NCBI GenBank assembly: GCA_016617855.1
Contig: JAECUM010003703.1
Span: 62,001-126,000, forward strand
DNA length: 64,000 nucleotides
Direction of reading: 5' to 3'
Source: Megalonaias nervosa
Taxonomy: Eukaryota; Mollusca; Bivalvia; Unionida; Unionidae
Part shown: positions 61,101-61,836 of the stretch, piece after piece
Layout: each line of letters begins with the position of its first letter
How positions within the stretch are numbered: the stretch's first letter is position 1
The notes under the pieces: model-generated
Seen by the model: the letters and a program-made list of their open reading frames with translations, nothing else
The model's database searches: none
What the model was told of the DNA's origin: nothing
Translations under genes and position numbers: made by a program

Positions 61101-61836
61101 CACTATTACAAGTTTTATTCCAATAAGATTAAATTGCATTTAAATGTGAATAGAAGGGTATTTTGGCAGGAAACAAATTATGACCAGAATAAAAGGTTTC
61201 TTTGTTCACTCTTTAAATTTAATACCCTTATGCTTTAGATGCTGACATTATTTAGTAACTTTTTTATAAAAGTGTTGAAATTCCATTGAAATGATTCTTG
61301 AGTCAGATGTGTATATAATGACCACTTTAGTGGTAACCAAGTGTTTTCTTTATAGAAAGATGGTCTTCATACTCAGCTAACATCAAATGCACAGACTGAA
61401 AGACAGCATGCATGATATATAGACAGGCAGAGAGATTAAAATGTAGCTGATATTTTATACAAAAGACATTAGATTACATGTAACACTGCTAAATAACTGC
61501 TGAATTTTAAAAAATTACATCATAGACCATGGGTCCATAAAATGGTCATAGCCAGGTGTATTAGGTAGATGGTTATTCCACACAGTTCATAGAGGAAAAC
61601 TGCAGAGGGCACTTAAAGATGGTTGTCATTTTAAATGTTTTCACAAGATTAGGTTTTATTACTATGCATGTATTTATTAAACAAAAGTTGCCGATATTAA
61701 ATTTTTTTGCAAGGCCAAGCAAGCCTGTAAATATGGCGCTGACTGTTATCAGACAAATCCAACTCACCTTGAAAGCTACAGTCACCCGCCAAAGTCTCAG
61801 TGCAGTTCACCGAATTCCAAATCTCAGACAGATAAG
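1142..61836 (+). CDS. LIG3: DNA ligase III, 14 exons, partial at both ends (gene span)
   Basis: ATP-dependent DNA ligase that seals nicks in base-excision, single-strand-break and alternative end-joining repair; in vertebrates it works with XRCC1 in the nucleus and alone in mitochondria. Fourteen exons with GT/AG borders join in compatible phase into 1941 nt (647 codons) without a stop. In order they give the end of the DNA-binding domain (exons 1-5), the nucleotidyltransferase core with KYDGER containing the catalytic lysine (exon 6), DGEVLL (7), LFIFDC (8), EGLEGLVLKD (10) and WLKVKKDY (11), the OB-fold with GISIRFPR (12), a charged linker (13) and a PBZ zinc finger (14). LIG1 and LIG4 are excluded by overall similarity and by LIG3-type blocks such as KKCPNG. 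The N-terminal PARP-type finger is upstream of the window; a C-terminal BRCT, if present, is beyond it. No frameshift or missing catalytic residue was seen. Confidence 0.96.
1693..3770. mobile_element. TIR DNA transposon, PIF/Harbinger-like by TSD
   Basis: The ends form inverted repeats: the left end starts GGGCTGTTCCAGTAAAACAT and the reverse complement of the right end is the same for about 25 bases, then both run into a C tract. The flanking triplet TTA is duplicated (1690-1692 and 3771-3773), as in PIF/Harbinger elements. Sub-terminal copies of CCCACAACAGAAG occur near both ends (about 1759 and 3645). Two overlapping minus-strand open frames (2857-3069 and 2987-3208) may be remains of one frameshifted coding sequence, but I do not recognise the protein. 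Superfamily assignment rests only on TSD and TIR. Confidence 0.6.
3790..5490. repeat. Degenerate tandem array, roughly 270-bp unit
   Basis: Loosely repeated blocks recur: a stretch like GAATCATAAAGCTTGGTGAG, then TTGATGAGTACTACAC, CTTACAACAAAAG, and a GGTCACTGTGACC-like palindrome, at about 3880, 4130, 4430, 4750 and 5260. A younger 53-bp direct duplication (about 5390-5490) sits at the end. The units are old and carry indels. Several AGGTCA-type inverted repeats lie in it. No protein is encoded; short frames here are fortuitous. Confidence 0.65.
4437..4451. promoter_or_regulatory. Perfect AGGTCA inverted repeat with 3-bp spacer (ERE-like)
   Basis: The 15-mer AGGTCACTGTGACCT is a perfect IR3 of the nuclear-receptor half-site AGGTCA, identical in form to the consensus oestrogen-response element. 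Imperfect relatives lie in the same array at 3893-3907, 5410-5424 and 5461-5475. Binding or function is not shown by sequence; it may be only a feature of the repeat. Confidence 0.35.
5909..5995 (+). CDS. LIG3: LIG3 exon 2 of window (DNA-binding domain)
   Basis: Twenty-nine codons starting GDVAETIKIFFDES and ending LSIQE, phase 0 on both sides, with acceptor TTTCCAG and donor GTAAAT. It aligns with the GDVSETIRVFFEQS...LLTIQE segment of vertebrate LIG3, in the helical DNA-binding domain. Confidence 0.95.
6183..9022 (+). mobile_element. DIRS-like retrotransposon with inverted terminal repeats, decayed
   Basis: The left end (6183-6283) and right end (about 8920-9022) are inverted repeats sharing GATCATAATACCTTAGG, a CCTCCTAGAT block and TATCTGCCCACCTAGGTGGC. 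Between them the + strand holds broken frames related to the better preserved copy at 13880-18000. Around 6850-6990 lies an RNase-H-like stretch (YNNSTVVIDL, then QGGTK), and near 8323 a decayed tyrosine-recombinase box (YKVR in place of HEVR). The order RNase H then recombinase fits DIRS elements, which integrate through a tyrosine recombinase. Stops and frameshifts are frequent, so it is inactive. The outer sequence at 8768-8830 also pairs with about 9000-9050. Confidence 0.65.
9180..9259 (+). CDS. LIG3: LIG3 exon 3 of window (DNA-binding domain)
   Basis: Eighty nt, phase 0 at the start and 2 nt of a split codon at the end, reading VDEMLQELSLHTKEDAQQR then VLAKVTS. Acceptor AAACAG, donor GTAAGG. 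It aligns with the VDEFLLRLSKLTKEDEQQ block of vertebrate LIG3. The split lysine codon is completed at 19178. Confidence 0.95.
9404..9669 (-). repeat. SINE family A, full-length tRNA-derived copy with 13-bp TSD
   Basis: Read on the minus strand, the head is tRNA-like (box A GTGGCCGAGTGGTCTAAAG, box B GGGTTCGAGTCT), followed by a body with GTGGGTCGGTGGTTCTTTCC and a tail GCTGAAAAATGGCGTTAAGC ending in AAC repeats. A 13-bp target duplication ACTTTGTTGATAT flanks it exactly (9391-9403 and 9670-9682). The head resembles a leucine or serine-type tRNA. It is an internal-promoter SINE, not a functional tRNA gene. Confidence 0.9.
9970..10123. mobile_element. Short hAT-type MITE
   Basis: It begins CAGGGGTCTCAAAC and ends with a degenerate inverse of it, with GGCCCGC/GCGGCCC-rich interior typical of short non-autonomous hAT elements. 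Flanking 8-mers GTTTAGGT (9962-9969) and GTTTAGAT (10124-10131) look like an 8-bp target duplication with one mismatch. It has no coding capacity. Confidence 0.6.
10134..11664. other. Intron 3 sequence without recognised features
   Basis: AT-rich intron DNA. Only a short AAT-type microsatellite (about 10912-10935) stands out. I see no supported gene, RNA or element. Confidence 0.4.
11667..13366 (+). mobile_element. pogo/Tigger-like DNA transposon, copy 1, decayed
   Basis: Inverted ends start CCGTATTTACC and continue with TTGGGAC; a TA dinucleotide is duplicated on both sides (11665-11666 and 13367-13368), as in Tc1/mariner-type elements. Near 12877 the + strand reads MDEILVYFDF, then GWTDDKMGVKSVRISTTG, and after a frameshift NLTLVLAAS and WIVRVQEKG...MLQWIKEF, which resembles the DDE_1 transposase domain of pogo/Tigger elements. 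The frame is broken, so it is inactive. A 65-codon frame at 11974-12171 is shared with copy 2; I do not recognise it. It is highly similar to 24536-26215. Confidence 0.8.
13443..13718 (+). repeat. SINE family B, tRNA-derived, full-length copy
   Basis: The head carries box A TGGTCTAGTGGTTAGAGCG and box B GGGTTCGAACCCC, followed by a tRNA-unrelated body (AAGACTTATAAAAATGGTAC, CAGCTGCCTCG, GACTGGGTGGGACATG) that ends near AGCGATTGAAAAA. The same sequence is found inverted at 60157-60421 and, truncated, at 49028-49200. The trailing A-rich segment runs into the CA microsatellite. It cannot be taken as a real tRNA gene because no acceptor stem closes after the box B arm. Confidence 0.85.
13741..13857. 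repeat. (CA)n microsatellite
   Basis: About 58 uninterrupted CA units. The open frame across it (alternating Thr-His) is an artefact of the dinucleotide repeat. Confidence 0.98.
13880..18000 (+). mobile_element. DIRS-like retrotransposon, second copy, 5' end unclear
   Basis: Broken + strand frames carry an RNase-H-like block (15300-15510: GHWLTGDHLLHISILEMR, later KSTVVNYLTKQGGTKSQDL) and, from 16815, a tyrosine-recombinase region: AHEVRAVTTS with the HxxR box, then DIIHAMRWKSEFTVSR. This order and the presence of a tyrosine recombinase with no integrase identify a DIRS-type element. The right terminus (about 17350-18000) has the same CACCTAGGTGGG and AGATAACTTTTAGC blocks as the copy at 6183-9022 but is split by another insertion (17388-17904). 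No matching left inverted repeat was found near 13880, so the copy is probably 5'-truncated. Many stops make it inactive. Confidence 0.65.
17388..17904. mobile_element. Nested MITE rich in GATTACA-like motifs
   Basis: The ends CATGGGGTCAATTA and TAATTGGCCCCATG are inverted, and the interior is full of GATTACAAT/ATTGTAATC-type words in both orientations. It interrupts the terminal repeat of the DIRS-like copy: the block split here is continuous in the copy at 8921-8940. Its superfamily is not determined; the GGGTCAATTA-type end is hAT-like. Confidence 0.5.
18745..18960. repeat. Fragment of DIRS-like 3' region
   Basis: The order of words (ACTCCCTCTTCC, TCACCTATTTTCCC, AATTATAATCAGGTAGT, AAAATGTTTATTTCAT, CTTATCTGGTCATAAT, CCACCCTCCCAAGC) parallels the segment at 17130-17290 of the DIRS-like copy and that at 8670-8830. 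It is a separate, more diverged remnant. Confidence 0.5.
19178..19255 (+). CDS. LIG3: LIG3 exon 4 of window (DNA-binding domain)
   Basis: Seventy-eight nt encoding CTSNDLKMFVRLIKHDLRIN then AGAKN with split codons on both sides. Acceptor TTTCAG, donor GTGAGT. It matches the CTANDLKCIIRLIKHDLKMN segment of vertebrate LIG3 nearly residue for residue. It follows a 9.9-kb intron, the largest in the window. Confidence 0.96.
19881..21153 (-). mobile_element. Penelope-like retroelement with inverted terminal repeats, decayed
   Basis: On the minus strand a 113-codon frame (20616-20957) contains RYVDHTLKYM (reverse transcriptase YVDD-type motif with the second Asp lost), then KLPFLDTCI and VTVYRKPTNKEQYL, typical of Penelope-like reverse transcriptases. 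Further along (about 20290-20210) GVVYHIKCSDCENDYVDETG resembles the start of the GIY-YIG endonuclease domain. The ends at 19881-19987 and 21053-21153 are inverted copies of each other (AATATCACA, CTTCAT, TGATCATGTGACTTATAAT). Such terminal repeats are known in Penelope-like elements. An (AT)n tract splits the coding part; stops make it inactive. Confidence 0.8.
20358..20426. repeat. (AT)n microsatellite
   Basis: About 34 AT units inside the Penelope-like element, separating its reverse-transcriptase and GIY-YIG parts. A Tyr-Ile repeat frame on the minus strand is an artefact. Confidence 0.95.
21859..22018 (+). CDS. LIG3: LIG3 exon 5 of window (DNA-binding domain into catalytic core)
   Basis: One nt of a split codon plus 53 codons: LDGLDANAYAAFQASRDLRD, then VVDRVLENKGSKLGLSKKL and SVRASLMTPVLPML. 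Acceptor TTTCAG, donor GTATGG. SLMTPVxPML is the signature at the entry to the ligase nucleotidyltransferase domain. The local open frame that starts at 21806 and reads through the donor is intronic at both ends. Confidence 0.96.
22361..22631. repeat. 35-bp minisatellite, about 7.7 copies
   Basis: Unit begins ATTGGAAATGACAGGGATAA and continues with TAAGTGGATAACTAC. Eight unit starts are spaced by 34-35 bp from 22362 to 22606, with few substitutions, so the array is young. It lies 340 bp after the donor of exon 5. Confidence 0.95.
22640..24320. other. Intron 5 sequence, AT-rich
   Basis: No gene or clear transposon. A 28-bp direct duplication (GAATGTGCTGAAGTGCCAA, about 23160-23208) and a short CA microsatellite (23993-24025) are the only repeats seen. 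Confidence 0.4.
24322..24477 (+). CDS. LIG3: LIG3 exon 6 of window: catalytic lysine motif
   Basis: Fifty-two codons in phase 0. It holds motif I KYDGER (codons 23-28), whose lysine becomes AMP-modified in the first step of ligation (K508 in human precursor numbering as I recall it), and motif Ia YFSRSLKPV near the end. KKCPNG just before is LIG3-typical. Acceptor TTTTAG. The donor AAG/GTTAGA is followed by further copies of the same exon-intron junction at about 24503 and 26230, the second of which is split off by a transposon. Confidence 0.98.
24458..24535. repeat. Tandem copies of the exon 6 splice-donor segment
   Basis: A unit of about 45 bp beginning AGCCTGTTTT and containing CTCACAAGGTTAGA is present at 24458 (genuine exon end) and again at 24503. 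A third version (AGCCTGTTTTACCTCGAGG) follows the pogo-like element at 26230. The transposon therefore inserted into a small array made of exon-end plus donor. Reading through the first donor hits a stop after six codons. Confidence 0.75.
24536..26215 (+). mobile_element. pogo/Tigger-like DNA transposon, copy 2, decayed
   Basis: Inverted ends CCGTATTTACTGTATAT and (reverse complement of the right end) CTGTATTTACCGTATAT flanked by duplicated TA (24534-24535 and 26216-26217). It is collinear with the copy at 11667-13366 over almost the whole length, including the 65-codon frame (24851-25048) and the transposase remnant MDEILVYFDC, GWTDNKMG and WIVCVQEK near 25755-25970. It has frame-breaking changes of its own, so both copies are dead. 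Confidence 0.8.
26218..27240. other. Intron 6 sequence without recognised features
   Basis: AT-rich, with poly-G (26637-26648) and poly-T tracts. No supported gene or element apart from the third splice-donor copy near 26230-26275. Confidence 0.4.
27240..27900. repeat. Degenerate tandem array, about 185-bp unit
   Basis: Roughly four diverged units with recurring words: CTTGTTTGAAACTTTTTGG, a GCACAGT/TTAGTGCAATTAAA word, then AAATTTGGTAGGCATTT, a CCTGATTAGATT word and TACACTTGTTTGAA. Related pieces continue at 29146-29207 and 29471-29700, so an old array was interrupted by later insertions. Confidence 0.6.
28516..28660 (-). repeat. SINE family A tail fragment with inverted-repeat arm
   Basis: GGATTTAATGCCATTTTTTCAGCACATGATAGACTATACATGGCAGC in part matches the inverse of the SINE A tail (short words only quoted: CATTTTTTCAGCACATGAT, TATACATGGCAGC). 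The adjoining part, 28588-28648, is an inverted match to 29033-29097. Confidence 0.5.
28761..29023. repeat. 263-bp direct duplication, first copy
   Basis: From AGCACACAACTTGAATGG to TGTCACTATGACA, nearly identical in sequence and identical in length to 29208-29470; one A/G difference was noticed (28914 against 29361 region). It lies between inverted arms 28588-28648 and 29033-29097. Confidence 0.9.
29208..29470. repeat. 263-bp direct duplication, second copy flanked by 22-bp repeats
   Basis: It is almost identical to 28761-29023 and is bounded exactly by the 22-mer starting TGATTAAATTTCAGGCCAGT and ending GA, on the left at 29186-29207 and on the right at 29471-29492. This looks like a patch copied from the first copy and inserted with a target-site duplication. 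Confidence 0.85.
29771..29902 (+). CDS. LIG3: LIG3 exon 7 of window: nucleotidyltransferase motif III
   Basis: Forty-four codons, phase 0, starting VAHFKDYIPKAFPSG, then LILDGEVLLID and TGKPLPFGTLGVHK. The DGE triplet is motif III, whose acidic residue helps bind the metal and AMP. Human LIG3 has a serine in place of the glycine at this position as I recall it. Acceptor TTAACAG, donor GTAACG. Confidence 0.97.
30300..31330. repeat. Degenerate dispersed array, TGGGGTTTTCACC family
   Basis: Repeated phrases: GAATGGTCATAT, a GGGGTTTTCACCAAAGGACTT phrase split by variants, TTATGATGTCTGGTTGG, AAATGAAAATGATGC and TGAAAATCTTGTTATC. Related arrays occur at 41590-42540, 52440-53010 and 53450-53930. 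A recent local expansion lies at 30732-31003. Confidence 0.65.
30732..31003. repeat. 68-bp tandem repeat, 4 copies
   Basis: Unit starts TTGGTACCAAAATGGCCACA at 30732, 30800, 30868 and 30936, spaced exactly 68 bp, with only single-base differences. Two overlapping frames across it are repeat artefacts. Confidence 0.95.
31692..31771 (+). CDS. LIG3: LIG3 exon 8 of window: motif IIIa
   Basis: Twenty-six codons plus two bases: KAKFEDANVCLFIFDCLHLN then GENLMN. LFIFDC is the ligase motif IIIa strand. Acceptor TTTACAG, donor GTAAGT; the split lysine codon is completed at 32992. Matches vertebrate DANVCLFVFDC. Confidence 0.97.
31970..32440. repeat. Degenerate tandem array, about 45-bp unit
   Basis: Recurring TCACCTTGGTGGAAGCTTGA and TATAGTGATCTCTGTGGCTA words, eight to nine times from about 32010. 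A related unit reappears at 32590-32625 after a SINE-like fragment. Confidence 0.75.
32468..32560 (+). repeat. tRNA-like SINE head fragment
   Basis: CGGGGCCCTGGGTGGCCTAG followed by TGGTCTATGGCACTTTG resembles the head of SINE family A (box A region). The usual body is missing; the sequence continues into the 45-bp array. Confidence 0.4.
32992..33079 (+). CDS. LIG3: LIG3 exon 9 of window
   Basis: One base plus 29 codons: PIQERRKALQENMKEIKNRV then MFSEMEHIK. It corresponds to the RPLCERRKFL...RIMFSEMK segment of vertebrate LIG3 between motifs IIIa and IV. Acceptor TATACAG, donor GTAGGT. Confidence 0.95.
33135..33373 (+). mobile_element. TA-flanked MITE, copy 1
   Basis: Left end CAGGTGATGCTCAATTTACG; right end TAAATCAAGCATCACCTA, its inverse, with TA on both sides. 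About 240 bp, no coding capacity. A second copy in opposite orientation is at 59690-59896. Confidence 0.7.
34590..35570 (+). pseudogene. Decayed non-LTR retrotransposon reverse transcriptase
   Basis: The + strand holds reverse-transcriptase-like pieces in shifting frames: IKQFRTISLLNMEKKTFLAV, EYIDTSVEKGGIPEVPGCLE, LDFANTYVS, then SMNLLVKSAE, SVPEGRWCSKI and LPGKYNDWHYQHGILPRILW. FRTISLLN and LDFANTY correspond to the fingers and the first-Asp motif of non-LTR (LINE-type) reverse transcriptases. Several stops and frameshifts separate them. I cannot assign the clade. The 141-codon minus-strand frame over it (34496-34921) is antisense noise. Confidence 0.75.
36210..36314. repeat. (GT)n microsatellite
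   Basis: About 52 GT units. Frames of alternating Val-Cys (+) or Thr-His (-) across it are artefacts. Confidence 0.98.
37291..38125. mobile_element. Nested TIR element with TACTCATACATGCCAACC ends
   Basis: TACTCATACATGCCAACC at 37291-37308 is matched by its inverse GGTTGGCATGTATGAGTA at 38108-38125. The span is about 835 bp, AT-rich and non-coding. It sits inside the larger TIR element at 36090-38696. Superfamily unknown. Confidence 0.5.
38815..39230. repeat. Degenerate ~62-bp tandem array next to exon 10
   Basis: Six to seven units with CTTACAACAAAAATTGATAC, CCCCATGAAAAATGGTGAAT and a TACAGTACTCATGGGATC word. The array ends only about 20 bp before the acceptor of LIG3 exon 10. Confidence 0.75.
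39247..39324 (+). CDS. LIG3: LIG3 exon 10 of window: motif IV
   Basis: Twenty-six codons, phase 0: KKEQLEDMMTRVFKEGLEGL then VLKDVN. EGLEGLVLKD is nucleotidyltransferase motif IV; its glutamate is part of the active site. Acceptor TTACAG, donor GTACGT. It joins exon 9 directly; the short stretch before the motif is less conserved than elsewhere. Confidence 0.97.
39325..40740. other. Intron 10 sequence without recognised features
   Basis: AT-rich intron with only a few short words repeated (CCCCAAACTAC near 40371-40405). No gene or element supported. Confidence 0.4.
40801..41225. repeat. 39-bp minisatellite, about 11 copies
   Basis: Unit starts AGATACACTAGGGTTTCATC and ends TGTGTACAGG; spacing is exactly 39 bp. 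Central copies are identical. Since 39 is a multiple of three, both strands stay open as 13-residue repeats (172 and 152 codons); there is no other sign of coding. Confidence 0.95.
41590..42540. repeat. Degenerate dispersed array, TGGGGTTTTCACC family, second block
   Basis: The same phrases as in 30300-31330: CCAATATGGCCACCATGGC, TTGATAATCTTGTTATC, TCACCAAAAGACTTCTTATG and AAATGAAAATGGT. A local 45-bp triplication (AACCTCCAATATGGCTGCTG, 41895-42020) is included. Confidence 0.65.
43020..43275. repeat. Two adjacent direct duplications (about 40 bp and 85 bp)
   Basis: The CACTATTTTTATATTTTTTA...GAAATCCATTACA segment occurs twice (from about 43016 and 43052), and an 85-bp unit starting AAAGTGAACTTTTTATGC twice (43104 and 43189), nearly identical. 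Confidence 0.85.
43290..45780. other. Intron 10 sequence without recognised features
   Basis: Mostly AT-rich. The piece 44320-44530 is locally GC-richer but has no exon-like frame with family similarity. Nothing supported. Confidence 0.35.
45820..46590. mobile_element. DIRS-type inverted-repeat remnant
   Basis: Left arm (45820-45915: AAATCTAGCCCTCCAAAG, CTGCTCACCTAGGTAG, AGAGTGATCTCCCCTTGG) is inverted in the right arm (46465-46590: CCAAGAAGAGATCACTCT, CTACCACCTAGACAAGCAG, CAGAGGGCTGGATT). Both resemble the terminal repeats of the DIRS-like copy at 6183-9022. The interior (about 550 bp) has no recognised coding. Confidence 0.5.
46866..47033. repeat. 42-bp tandem repeat, 4 copies
   Basis: Unit ends TTTCAGCCCAGCATTGTGGG; starts at 46866, 46908, 46950 and 46992. 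On + it stays open as a 14-residue repeat (FQPSIVGKL core) in a 77-codon frame (46858-47091). No family was recognised, so I do not call it a gene. Confidence 0.8.
47034..48660. other. Intron 10 end, possible unassigned transposon remnant
   Basis: The stretch 47190-48180 is less AT-rich than its surroundings and looks like decayed coding DNA, with many short frames on both strands and no intact one. I could not assign it to a family. The rest shows short local duplications (about 48260-48400 and 48590-48640). Confidence 0.3.
48665..48788 (+). CDS. LIG3: LIG3 exon 11 of window: motif V
   Basis: Forty-one codons plus one base: GIYEPGKRHWLKVKKDYLNE then GSMADSADLIVLGAYYGTGN. WLKVKKDY is motif V with the lysines that contact the AMP phosphate; the following strand starts the OB-fold. 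Acceptor CTTCAG, donor GTTTGT. Confidence 0.98.
49028..49200 (-). repeat. SINE family B, truncated copy
   Basis: Read on the minus strand: TGGTCTAATGGTTAGAACG (box A), GGGTTCGAACC (box B), then ACTTAAAAAAATGGTACTAA and GTCAGCCTGGAATCAGG. It matches 13443-13718 but lacks the distal third. Confidence 0.8.
49245..49730. repeat. Repeat family with CCTTGAAAATTCCTTGA ends, copy 1
   Basis: Both ends are rich in CTTGAAAA-type words, and the ends CCATGGTTTGTACAA and (inverse) CCAAGGTTCATGCAG resemble each other, as in a TIR element. The middle (ATCACTTTTTAAA, GGGATAAAATTTGGTG) recurs at 62215-62560. Confidence 0.45.
49731..51430. other. Intron 11 sequence without recognised features
   Basis: AT-rich intron DNA. 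No gene, RNA or element could be supported. Confidence 0.4.
51436..51660 (+). repeat. SINE family A, diverged copy
   Basis: GGGGTCTGGTGGCCAAGTTG head, GGTATGAGAGAAAGCATGCC, GTCTGTGGTTCTTTCCAGG and tail TGTGCTGAAAAATTTCATTA. It is collinear with the full copy at 9404-9669 (opposite strand) and more diverged. Confidence 0.75.
52440..53930. repeat. Degenerate dispersed array, TGGGGTTTTCACC family, third block
   Basis: The phrases AATATGGCTGCCATAGTGGC, TCTTGAAAATATTGTTAT, GGTGTTTCACCAGAAGAATT, CTAAATGAAAATGGTGCC and ATGGGGTTTTCTCTGAAAG recur about every 150 bp, with a gap at 53010-53450 that contains no clear units. Confidence 0.6.
55204..55568 (+). CDS. LIG3: LIG3 exon 12 of window: OB-fold domain and motif VI
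   Basis: Two bases plus 121 codons, the largest exon seen. It begins GGIMSVFLCGVYDPDSRQFC, continues through KISKNMSKVPPWL and DPKKAPVWEIVGAEFSKAE, and contains GISIRFPR (motif VI, needed for lysine adenylation), ending LPRLQ. It forms most of the OB-fold. Acceptor TTGTAG, donor GTAAGT. The upstream methionine of the local open frame (55152) is intronic. Confidence 0.98.
55569..58120. other. Intron 12 sequence without recognised features
   Basis: AT-rich intron DNA with fortuitous short frames. No element was recognised. Confidence 0.4.
58140..58262 (-). repeat. tRNA-like SINE, third type
   Basis: On the minus strand: TGGTGGCACAGCTGGAAGAG (box A-like) and GGTACAACCC (box B-like, with substitutions) about 35 bp apart, followed by AAGCTTCCTTGGGTGCGTC. 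It is unlike families A and B. The degenerate boxes and missing stem argue against a functional tRNA. Confidence 0.45.
59690..59896 (-). mobile_element. TA-flanked MITE, copy 2
   Basis: CAGGTCATGCTTGATTTTCA at the left and GAGCATCACCTA at the right, flanked by TA. The interior is the reverse complement of the copy at 33135-33373 (CATTCCTGAGG, GTGCCAGCATTTGGCATAAA). Confidence 0.7.
60157..60421 (-). repeat. SINE family B, full-length copy
   Basis: Inverse of 13443-13718 over the whole length: CATCATGTCCCACCCAGTC, CCAACCAGTCTAAACACTAA, CAAGGCAGCTGTTAATACCA, then the box B remnant TGGGGTTCCAACGCATGG and box A remnant CGCTCTACCCACTTGGGCCA. It lies 170 bp upstream of LIG3 exon 13. Confidence 0.8.
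60589..60933 (+). CDS. LIG3: LIG3 exon 13 of window: charged C-terminal linker
   Basis: One hundred and fifteen codons, phase 0 at both ends. It starts ELFKKSKETADFTL, the last conserved piece of the catalytic region (vertebrate KELYQLSKEKADFT), then becomes low-complexity: lysine-rich KSPKRKGSKKSSG, an acidic run EEDEEDVSVTEEEEAVED and several S/T-P sites (DTPVK, RTPSK, STPVK, ISPGKK). TPVKMGVKR resembles SPVKVGEKR of the human linker. The linker is expected to be disordered and may carry a nuclear localisation signal and proline-directed phosphorylation sites (inferred). Acceptor TTACAG, donor GTATTT. The frame continuing to 60948 runs past the donor. Confidence 0.93.
61714..61836 (+). CDS. 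LIG3: LIG3 exon 14 of window: PBZ poly(ADP-ribose)-binding zinc finger
   Basis: Forty-one codons in phase with exon 13, acceptor TTTTTTTGCAAG, donor GTATTG. Residues 2-25 read KQACKYGADCYQTNPTHLES then YSHP. This fits the PBZ pattern [K/R]xxCx[F/Y]GxxC...H...[F/Y]xH with spacing C-x5-C-x6-H-x5-H; zinc ligands are the codons at 61726, 61744, 61765 and 61783. PBZ fingers (APLF, CHFR) bind poly(ADP-ribose) made by PARP at DNA breaks. The remaining residues are Ser/Gln-rich (PKSQCSSPNSKSQTDK). The exon lacks an ATG and overlaps an unrelated 83-codon frame. That it belongs to LIG3 rests on phase, strand, distance (780-bp intron) and repair logic; an independent downstream gene is less likely but possible. 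Confidence 0.85.

Follow-up and report, generated by a model that had tools for sequence, protein, structure and literature searches.

PBZ zinc fingers read poly(ADP-ribose) (PAR), a chain that cells place on broken DNA. In the PBZ of APLF, one arginine reportedly contacts the phosphates of PAR. Here, we demonstrate that the LIG3 gene (DNA ligase III) of the freshwater mussel Megalonaias nervosa, a unionid, contains an exon encoding such a finger. The exon lies within the window, as we call the whole stretch of 64,000 nucleotides that was analyzed, and its position and borders are given in Table 1 together with those of other LIG3 exons.

Table 1. Features of the mussel LIG3 gene around the PBZ exon (window numbering)
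Feature	Position	Strand	Details
Adjacent upstream LIG3 exon	60589-60933	+	donor AAG|gtattt
PBZ exon of LIG3	61714-61836	+	41 codons, phase 0 in, phase 0 out
Acceptor of PBZ exon	61714	+	ttttttgcaag|GCC; splice border as expected
Donor of PBZ exon	61836	+	GATAAG|gtattg; splice border as expected
BRCT exon of LIG3	69241-69326		outside window
BRCT exon of LIG3	80604-80673		outside window

Translation of the exon yields AKQACKYGADCYQTNPTHLESYSHPPKSQCSSPNSKSQTDK, which follows the pattern C-x5-C-x6-H-x5-H, and residues 2-27 of this product match the Pfam family zf-CCHH (PF10283; E 2.1e-12, 47.2 bits, Pfam cut-off 22.7). Together with the border sequences, these results confirm the PBZ exon in LIG3 that had been proposed by the sequence-only reading. 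All 2146 six-frame stretches of the window were scored with a profile of 43 LIG3 fingers, which included neither the finger studied here nor the two from unionids. The PBZ frame reached 53.2 bits; the runner-up had 8.1 bits and the top score in 30 locally shuffled windows was 10.5. A second in-frame acceptor after position 61719 is possible. Since the exon is symmetric, a transcript that skipped it would keep the reading frame.

The exon is in frame with 13 upstream LIG3 exons inside the window and also with the two BRCT exons past its end. The predicted order of finger, DNA-binding domain, catalytic core, linker, PBZ and BRCT was borne out, including the BRCT domain that had been offered with a "perhaps". 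We found no counterpart of the final ~33 codons of Potamilus LIG3 in the sequence examined up to the contig end. Among the matches listed, the best match of mussel LIG3 was Potamilus streckersoni LIG3, with 96% identity over the entire query; in the PBZ exon, 38 of 41 residues are identical to this database protein. Matching LIG3 is also carried by transcript-sized contigs of relatives (e.g., P0004 with 990 aa and a longest contig of 3133 bases). These contigs and the Potamilus protein are the nearest support for use of the exon.

Our survey of PBZ in LIG3 comprised 120 rows among the matches listed, with 41 invertebrate-named, 63 vertebrate and 16 remaining ones. The sequence-only reading had asked whether a PBZ-bearing LIG3 is already described and common: common it is, with a PBZ in 35 of the 41 invertebrate-named rows among these matches, but no paper describing it was found in the open-access library that was searched. 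Ten of the 16 remaining rows also had a PBZ, and an additional search revealed one at the same place in LIG3 of one nematode and one choanoflagellate. Confining PBZ-LIG3 to the mussel's own lineage, as initially suggested, is therefore too narrow. The expected lack of a PBZ in vertebrate LIG3 held for all rows (0/63 among the matches listed), 51 of which extend into BRCT. Database domain labels already place PBZ on LIG3 and PBZ is already known as a kind; its placement on LIG3, its age and its losses appear undescribed so far.

That LIG3 may read PAR directly through its PBZ is a natural inference. A difference from APLF suggests caution: at the position of the PAR-phosphate arginine, PBZ-bearing LIG3 has glutamine (45/45 rows among the matches listed). 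Recruitment of LIG3 partly independent of XRCC1, as put forward by the sequence-only reading, would be a hypothesis. Megalonaias nervosa has retained the XRCC1 N-terminal domain and, as the LIG3 BRCT exons are retained as well, the PBZ looks like an addition beside the XRCC1 route. Judged from its distribution, the PBZ on LIG3 would best be read as an ancient PAR-targeting module that was lost in vertebrates and repeatedly elsewhere. Its presence in LIG3 of invertebrates and a choanoflagellate, and in no examined vertebrate sequence, points to an old part lost by the vertebrate line. Given the many invertebrates that carry it, vertebrate LIG3 looks like the derived case.

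The DNA ligase III gene (LIG3) of Megalonaias nervosa carries, within its own reading frame, an exon-like stretch that has the ligand pattern of a poly(ADP-ribose)-binding zinc finger (PBZ; Pfam PF10283) and a PBZ-like predicted fold, and that is conserved over distant phyla. It contains CKYGADCYQTNPTHLESYSH, with the spacing C-x5-C-x6-H-x5-H, an aromatic residue and glycine after the first cysteine and an aromatic residue before the last histidine. The Pfam profile matches the exon at 47.2 bits (E 2.1e-12), above its cut-off of 22.7, and translation and Pfam together bear out the finger pattern claimed by the sequence-only reading. 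As a control, a profile of 43 LIG3 fingers, from which both unionid fingers and that of the window were excluded, was run against all 2146 six-frame open stretches of at least 20 residues in the whole window and against 30 locally shuffled windows. The PBZ frame scored 53.2 bits, the runner-up among the 2146 stretches 8.1 and the best stretch of each shuffled window 5.4 to 10.5 bits, which rules out a chance match. The exon holds one finger and the LIG3 protein of the unionid Potamilus streckersoni one PF10283 stretch, so there is no tandem. Since the exon is 123 bases long and in phase 0 on both sides, its gain, loss or skipping would leave the reading frame intact.

The surrounding gene was reconstructed by tblastn with a presumed human LIG3 sequence, which recovered the exons encoding the catalytic part, collinear on the plus strand. 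Splice borders set by hand gave 13 exons between 5909 and 61836 with consistent phases and an open frame of 632 residues, in agreement with the splice borders and the in-phase join to the upstream LIG3 exon described before; 351 of 582 columns (60%) are identical to this human sequence. Potamilus LIG3 as an additional query yielded the exon at 1142-1186, four upstream matches, the zf-PARP part among them, and two downstream BRCT exons, all on the contig bearing the window (C3105). The zf-PARP part lies upstream of the window (C3105 46172-46702, 93% to Potamilus by tblastn); Pfam finds zf-PARP at residues 91-175 of Potamilus LIG3 and LIG3_BRCT in the same protein. The predicted domain order, including the BRCT domain that had been proposed as a possibility, was therefore recovered. 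The frame is unbroken from 1142 through the PBZ exon into BRCT, and the LIG3 matches cover more than 96 kb (C3105 46172 to 142673); no match to the end of BRCT turned up in the bases covered up to the contig end. Compared with solved structures, the OB-fold exon matches human DNA ligase 3 (3l2p) with E 6.3e-48, DNA ligase 1 with 1.5e-9 and DNA ligase 4 with 2.8e-7; judged by sequence, the gene is LIG3, closer to LIG3 than to LIG1 or LIG4. The closest proteins among the matches listed are those of Potamilus (96% over the whole query) and Sinanodonta woodiana (93% over 97%).

Exons and intron of LIG3 in the window (P0002, LIG3 of Potamilus streckersoni)
Feature	Window position	Strand	Basis
LIG3 exon, DNA-binding domain, IFGTGQEDMTEDLNQ	1142..1186	+	Potamilus LIG3 query
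LIG3 exon, DNA-binding domain	5909..5995	+	tblastn, hand-set borders
LIG3 exon, DNA-binding domain	9180..9259	+	tblastn, hand-set borders
LIG3 exon, DNA-binding domain	19178..19255	+	tblastn, hand-set borders
LIG3 exon, end of DNA-binding domain	21859..22018	+	tblastn, hand-set borders
LIG3 exon with EIKYDGER (presumably the nucleotidyltransferase motif)	24322..24477	+	tblastn, hand-set borders
LIG3 exon	29771..29902	+	tblastn, hand-set borders
LIG3 exon	31692..31771	+	tblastn, hand-set borders
LIG3 exon	32992..33079	+	tblastn, hand-set borders
LIG3 exon	39247..39324	+	tblastn, hand-set borders
LIG3 exon, last part of nucleotidyltransferase domain and first part of OB fold	48665..48788	+	tblastn, hand-set borders
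OB-fold exon (DNA_ligase_A_C)	55204..55568	+	Pfam E 2.4e-14
Linker exon, low-complexity, ending SPGKK; no match in a Pfam scan	60589..60933	+	aligns with P0002 residues 796-910
Intron, linker exon to PBZ exon (gtattt...gcaag)	60934..61713	+	splice borders
PBZ exon, 41 codons, phase 0/phase 0	61714..61836	+	Pfam PF10283, splice borders, null control

The exon is predicted here from genomic sequence, in a gene with long, repeat-rich introns and a retroelement after the PBZ exon, and it might accordingly belong to another gene or be an unspliced decoy in a LIG3 intron. This reading is nearly refuted: the exon agrees in phase with its neighbours at either border, the reading frame continues uninterrupted into BRCT, and Potamilus, Sinanodonta and many other relatives have PBZ and LIG3 in one protein. 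For the mussel itself, we infer that the exon is spliced into LIG3 and that the finger binds zinc and poly(ADP-ribose) (PAR) and recruits the ligase. As a separate observation, the intron after the PBZ exon contains an LTR-retrotransposon-like reading frame (window 62922-63998 and L006:2-748) with an integrase C-terminal domain upstream of a reverse transcriptase in one frame, an order that we take to be the reverse of the usual Ty3/gypsy arrangement and to recall Gmr1-like elements. Minisatellites lie in LIG3 introns at 40801-41232 (39 bases), 30732-31010 (68) and 22361-22631 (35).

The finger is not peculiar to this mussel. Among the best 120 of 2231 matches of the protein survey, the PBZ pattern occurs in 45, the same entries that carry the PF10283 label. 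Tallied by organism name, with the phylum of most entries assigned as we presume it to be and some taxa looked up (including Plectus, Salpingoeca and Potamilus), PBZ is present in 35 of 41 invertebrate entries, in none of 63 vertebrate entries and in 10 of the 16 nameless ones. The named bearers among these 120 are bivalves, gastropods, a chiton, cephalopods, Lingula, Owenia and Tubulanus as well as Glandiceps, Branchiostoma, Amphiura, Apostichopus and Anneissia. The vertebrate entries are by name tetrapods, cartilaginous fishes and sturgeon, with no cyclostome; 51 of these 63 listed matches run into BRCT without a finger, and the other 12, which include three sturgeon entries flagged as unverified, stop before BRCT or differ there. 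Within this scope, the earlier statement that vertebrate LIG3 has no PBZ holds. As to the invertebrates counted as lacking PBZ, the Ruditapes protein (P0018) is partial and stops at the border before the PBZ exon, those of Aplysia (P0035; 17.3 bits, short of the Pfam cut-off) and Lamellibrachia (P0040) have a decayed finger whose first cysteine is gone, and the LIG3 proteins of Capitella (P0052), Physella (P0045) and Bulinus (P0053) have no trace of one. Faulty gene models may lie behind some of these losses.

A second search, with a probe of nine fingers that all have glutamine after CY (62 matches), found PBZ on LIG3 of the nematode Plectus sambesii (E 0.15) and the choanoflagellate Salpingoeca rosetta (E 4.4). 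Both were accepted despite these E-values because a Pfam scan gave the fingers 46.4 and 43.2 bits, respectively, each between DNA_ligase_A_C and LIG3_BRCT. The suggested Pfam check of relatives' LIG3 thus returned a finger in the same slot in these two species, besides the label on the 45 listed proteins. The proposal that the ligase reads PAR directly "in this lineage" is a natural reading but too narrow in scope; a gain in a single lineage is ruled out, as many invertebrates and a choanoflagellate bear the finger.

Judging from these sequences, the simplest reading is one origin of the finger in LIG3 before animals and repeated loss, and its distribution points to several losses among invertebrates besides that in the vertebrate line. 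PBZ is a mobile module on many repair proteins, and several gains are conceivable because sponges, cnidarians and arthropods, like tunicates, lie outside the LIG3 sample. That PBZ joined LIG3 more than once, in the choanoflagellate, the nematode and other bilaterians, would be compatible with a PAR-binding finger; we consider it unlikely given the same slot from OB fold to BRCT in the scanned proteins and the same CYQ signature (CFQ once). We further propose, tentatively and at somewhat less than even odds, that direct PAR reading through the linker PBZ was the ancestral, pre-animal way of targeting LIG3, and that the dependence of vertebrate LIG3 on XRCC1 for PAR-guided recruitment was derived after the loss of one symmetric exon.

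Residue conservation and structure prediction bear on what the finger does. Over the 45 PBZ-bearing entries among the best 120 of 2231, C5, C11, Q13, H18 and H24 are constant and positions 7 and 12 are tyrosine in 44 and phenylalanine in one each, where the pattern used to pick the entries already demands the cysteines, the histidines and the aromatic at 7, not Q13 or position 12. An alignment of 37 of the 45 with the window exon has seven invariant residues, two too many, because P0020 (Phe at 12) and P0046 (Phe at 7) were left out of it. The nearest solved structures by sequence are the two PBZ fingers of human APLF (E 2.9e-11). An AlphaFold2 model of the exon (38 sequences, mean pLDDT 75.6, pTM 0.42) adopts a fold matching that of PBZ: Foldseek gave nine matches, with the weak E-values that so short a domain entails, and those at ranks 1 to 7 are APLF (rmsd 0.9 to 3.2) or CHFR (0.6 to 0.9) PBZ chains, the latter including complexes with mono-ADP-ribose. 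VIA-align returned no matches for the model.

The LIG3 finger differs from APLF in the residue after CY. All 45 PBZ-bearing LIG3 entries (among the best 120 of 2231) have glutamine here, as do five further ones of the probe search, including the nematode and the choanoflagellate (one, P0128, is from the same species as P0055). Both APLF fingers instead have arginine (R387/R429), which contacts PAR phosphates according to a figure legend in PMC6264785. Affinity or ligand preference may therefore differ from those of APLF. The glutamine and the arginine at this place in four other PBZ fingers of the mussel genome could mean that the finger is folded and retained for another main ligand, such as another nucleic acid, mono-ADP-ribose or a protein partner; the RNA-binding Nab2 fingers at Foldseek ranks 8 and 9 would fit as well. 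We regard this as distinctly improbable. Positions 7 and 12, where the aromatics of APLF contact adenine, hold Tyr or Phe in all listed entries, and glutamine is also found in 13 of 13 probe matches with an HPF1 domain (10 bear insect names), although its share among the probe matches says little because the probe was built from Gln-type fingers. It was PBZ on insect and mollusc HPF1 that first tied HPF1 to PARPs (PMC8634249, excerpt). Given repeated loss and decay among invertebrates and a symmetric, readily lost exon, the finger might instead be a remnant under little selection that is being lost, as in Aplysia. To this we give very little credence, since all ligand residues and aromatics are intact in the mussel, positions constant across phyla are unchanged, and the exon shares 38 of 41 residues with Potamilus and 33 of 41 with Sinanodonta.

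We favor, at a probability of roughly 80%, a working PBZ finger in the flexible LIG3 linker that most likely binds PAR and so draws the ligase to nicks or keeps it there. PARPs would make PAR at DNA breaks and the finger, between OB fold and BRCT, would bind it, acting together with the N-terminal zf-PARP, which would bind nicked DNA, and with BRCT, which would bind XRCC1. PBZ would then be a direct, probably moderate tether, additional to these two routes. By analogy, SNM1A carries a single PBZ, for which PAR binding in vitro is reported and which acts with other motifs (PMC11199599, excerpt), and Ku70 of Dictyostelium has a PBZ (PMC5087659, excerpt). A replacement of XRCC1 by the finger is rejected in view of the BRCT exons of LIG3 and an XRCC1_N match on another contig of the mussel genome (C1550). 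This match reads, as we take it, like XRCC1. A second XRCC1_N-bearing locus, distinct from the first, lies on contig C52173 (L017-L019). LIG3 isoform models with PBZ that end before BRCT were seen in amphioxus (P0048) and a nemertean (P0039); they are LIG3-beta-like candidates and, if real, would be ligases that reach PAR without XRCC1.

Five PBZ exons, LIG3's included, were found in the mussel genome by a search that would miss split or divergent fingers, and their neighbours were placed by tblastn of the surroundings. On the same contig and strand, one finger accompanies a TDP1-like match (C4877; L020 1-60 and 5657-5764), one an HPF1-like match about 16 kb away (C32780), and two LigE/LigK-type ligase matches (C329, L023-L025), so that LIG3 and a second ligase both seem to be PBZ-tagged. 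TDP1, HPF1 and LigE/LigK-type ligases all belong to PAR or nick-repair pathways, and together with LIG3 these four genes read as a PAR-tagged nick-repair set. TDP1 with PBZ was also observed in Liolophura (P0145) and Brachionus (P0134), and one protein from EukProt (P0149) combines XRCC1_N, PBZ and GRF zinc ribbons.

PBZ is published on LigE/LigK (PMC6264785 and PMC10665377, excerpts) and on insect and mollusc HPF1 (PMC8634249, excerpt). For LIG3, no statement was found in the open-access literature searched, and the accessible main text of a survey of PAR systems that discusses PBZ distribution has no word beginning with "ligase" (PMC4245714). The PF10283 label on database LIG3 proteins makes the finger visible to anyone looking. 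With respect to whether PBZ-bearing LIG3 is already described and common, it is common (45 listed proteins), and a description was not found in the open-access literature. Vertebrate LIG3 reaches breaks via XRCC1, which reads PAR, and most knowledge of LIG3 recruitment comes from vertebrates. PAR binding by XRCC1 and its link to the ligase are reported in PMC10317172 (excerpt), and a review describes LIG3 as vertebrate-only or spotty outside vertebrates (PMC4488670, excerpt). The LIG3 genes seen here include those of molluscs, annelids, echinoderms, a nematode and a choanoflagellate, and many of these encode a PAR-reader finger of their own. The interest of the finger lies mainly in its age, its absence from vertebrates and its bearing on XRCC1 dependence: is XRCC1 required by a ligase that carries its own PAR reader, and which function went missing when the exon disappeared from vertebrates?

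Vertebrate LIG3 alpha shares with mussel LIG3 the zf-PARP, DNA-binding domain, catalytic core, OB fold, linker and BRCT and differs in the PBZ, absent from 63 of 63 vertebrate entries among the matches listed. The tandem PBZ of human APLF (2kqb, 2kqc, 2kuo) is alike in finger sequence and fold, with the same Cys, His and aromatic positions; APLF, however, has two fingers with Arg-Lys after CY, whereas mussel LIG3 has one, with Gln-Thr, on a ligase. SNM1A (DCLRE1A) likewise is a DNA repair enzyme with a single PBZ and other targeting motifs (PMC11199599, excerpt), but it is a nuclease and has UBZ and a PIP box in place of zf-PARP and BRCT. LigE/LigK of bdelloid rotifers, Mortierella and others are also ATP-dependent DNA ligases fused to PBZ; in the available excerpts (PMC6264785, PMC10665377) they belong to another ligase family, presumed to derive from bacteria, for which zf-PARP or a LIG3 BRCT is not described. 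Finally, Dictyostelium DNA ligase III resembles mussel LIG3 in carrying a fused ADP-ribose reader, which in its case is a macrodomain rather than a PBZ (PMC5087659, excerpt).
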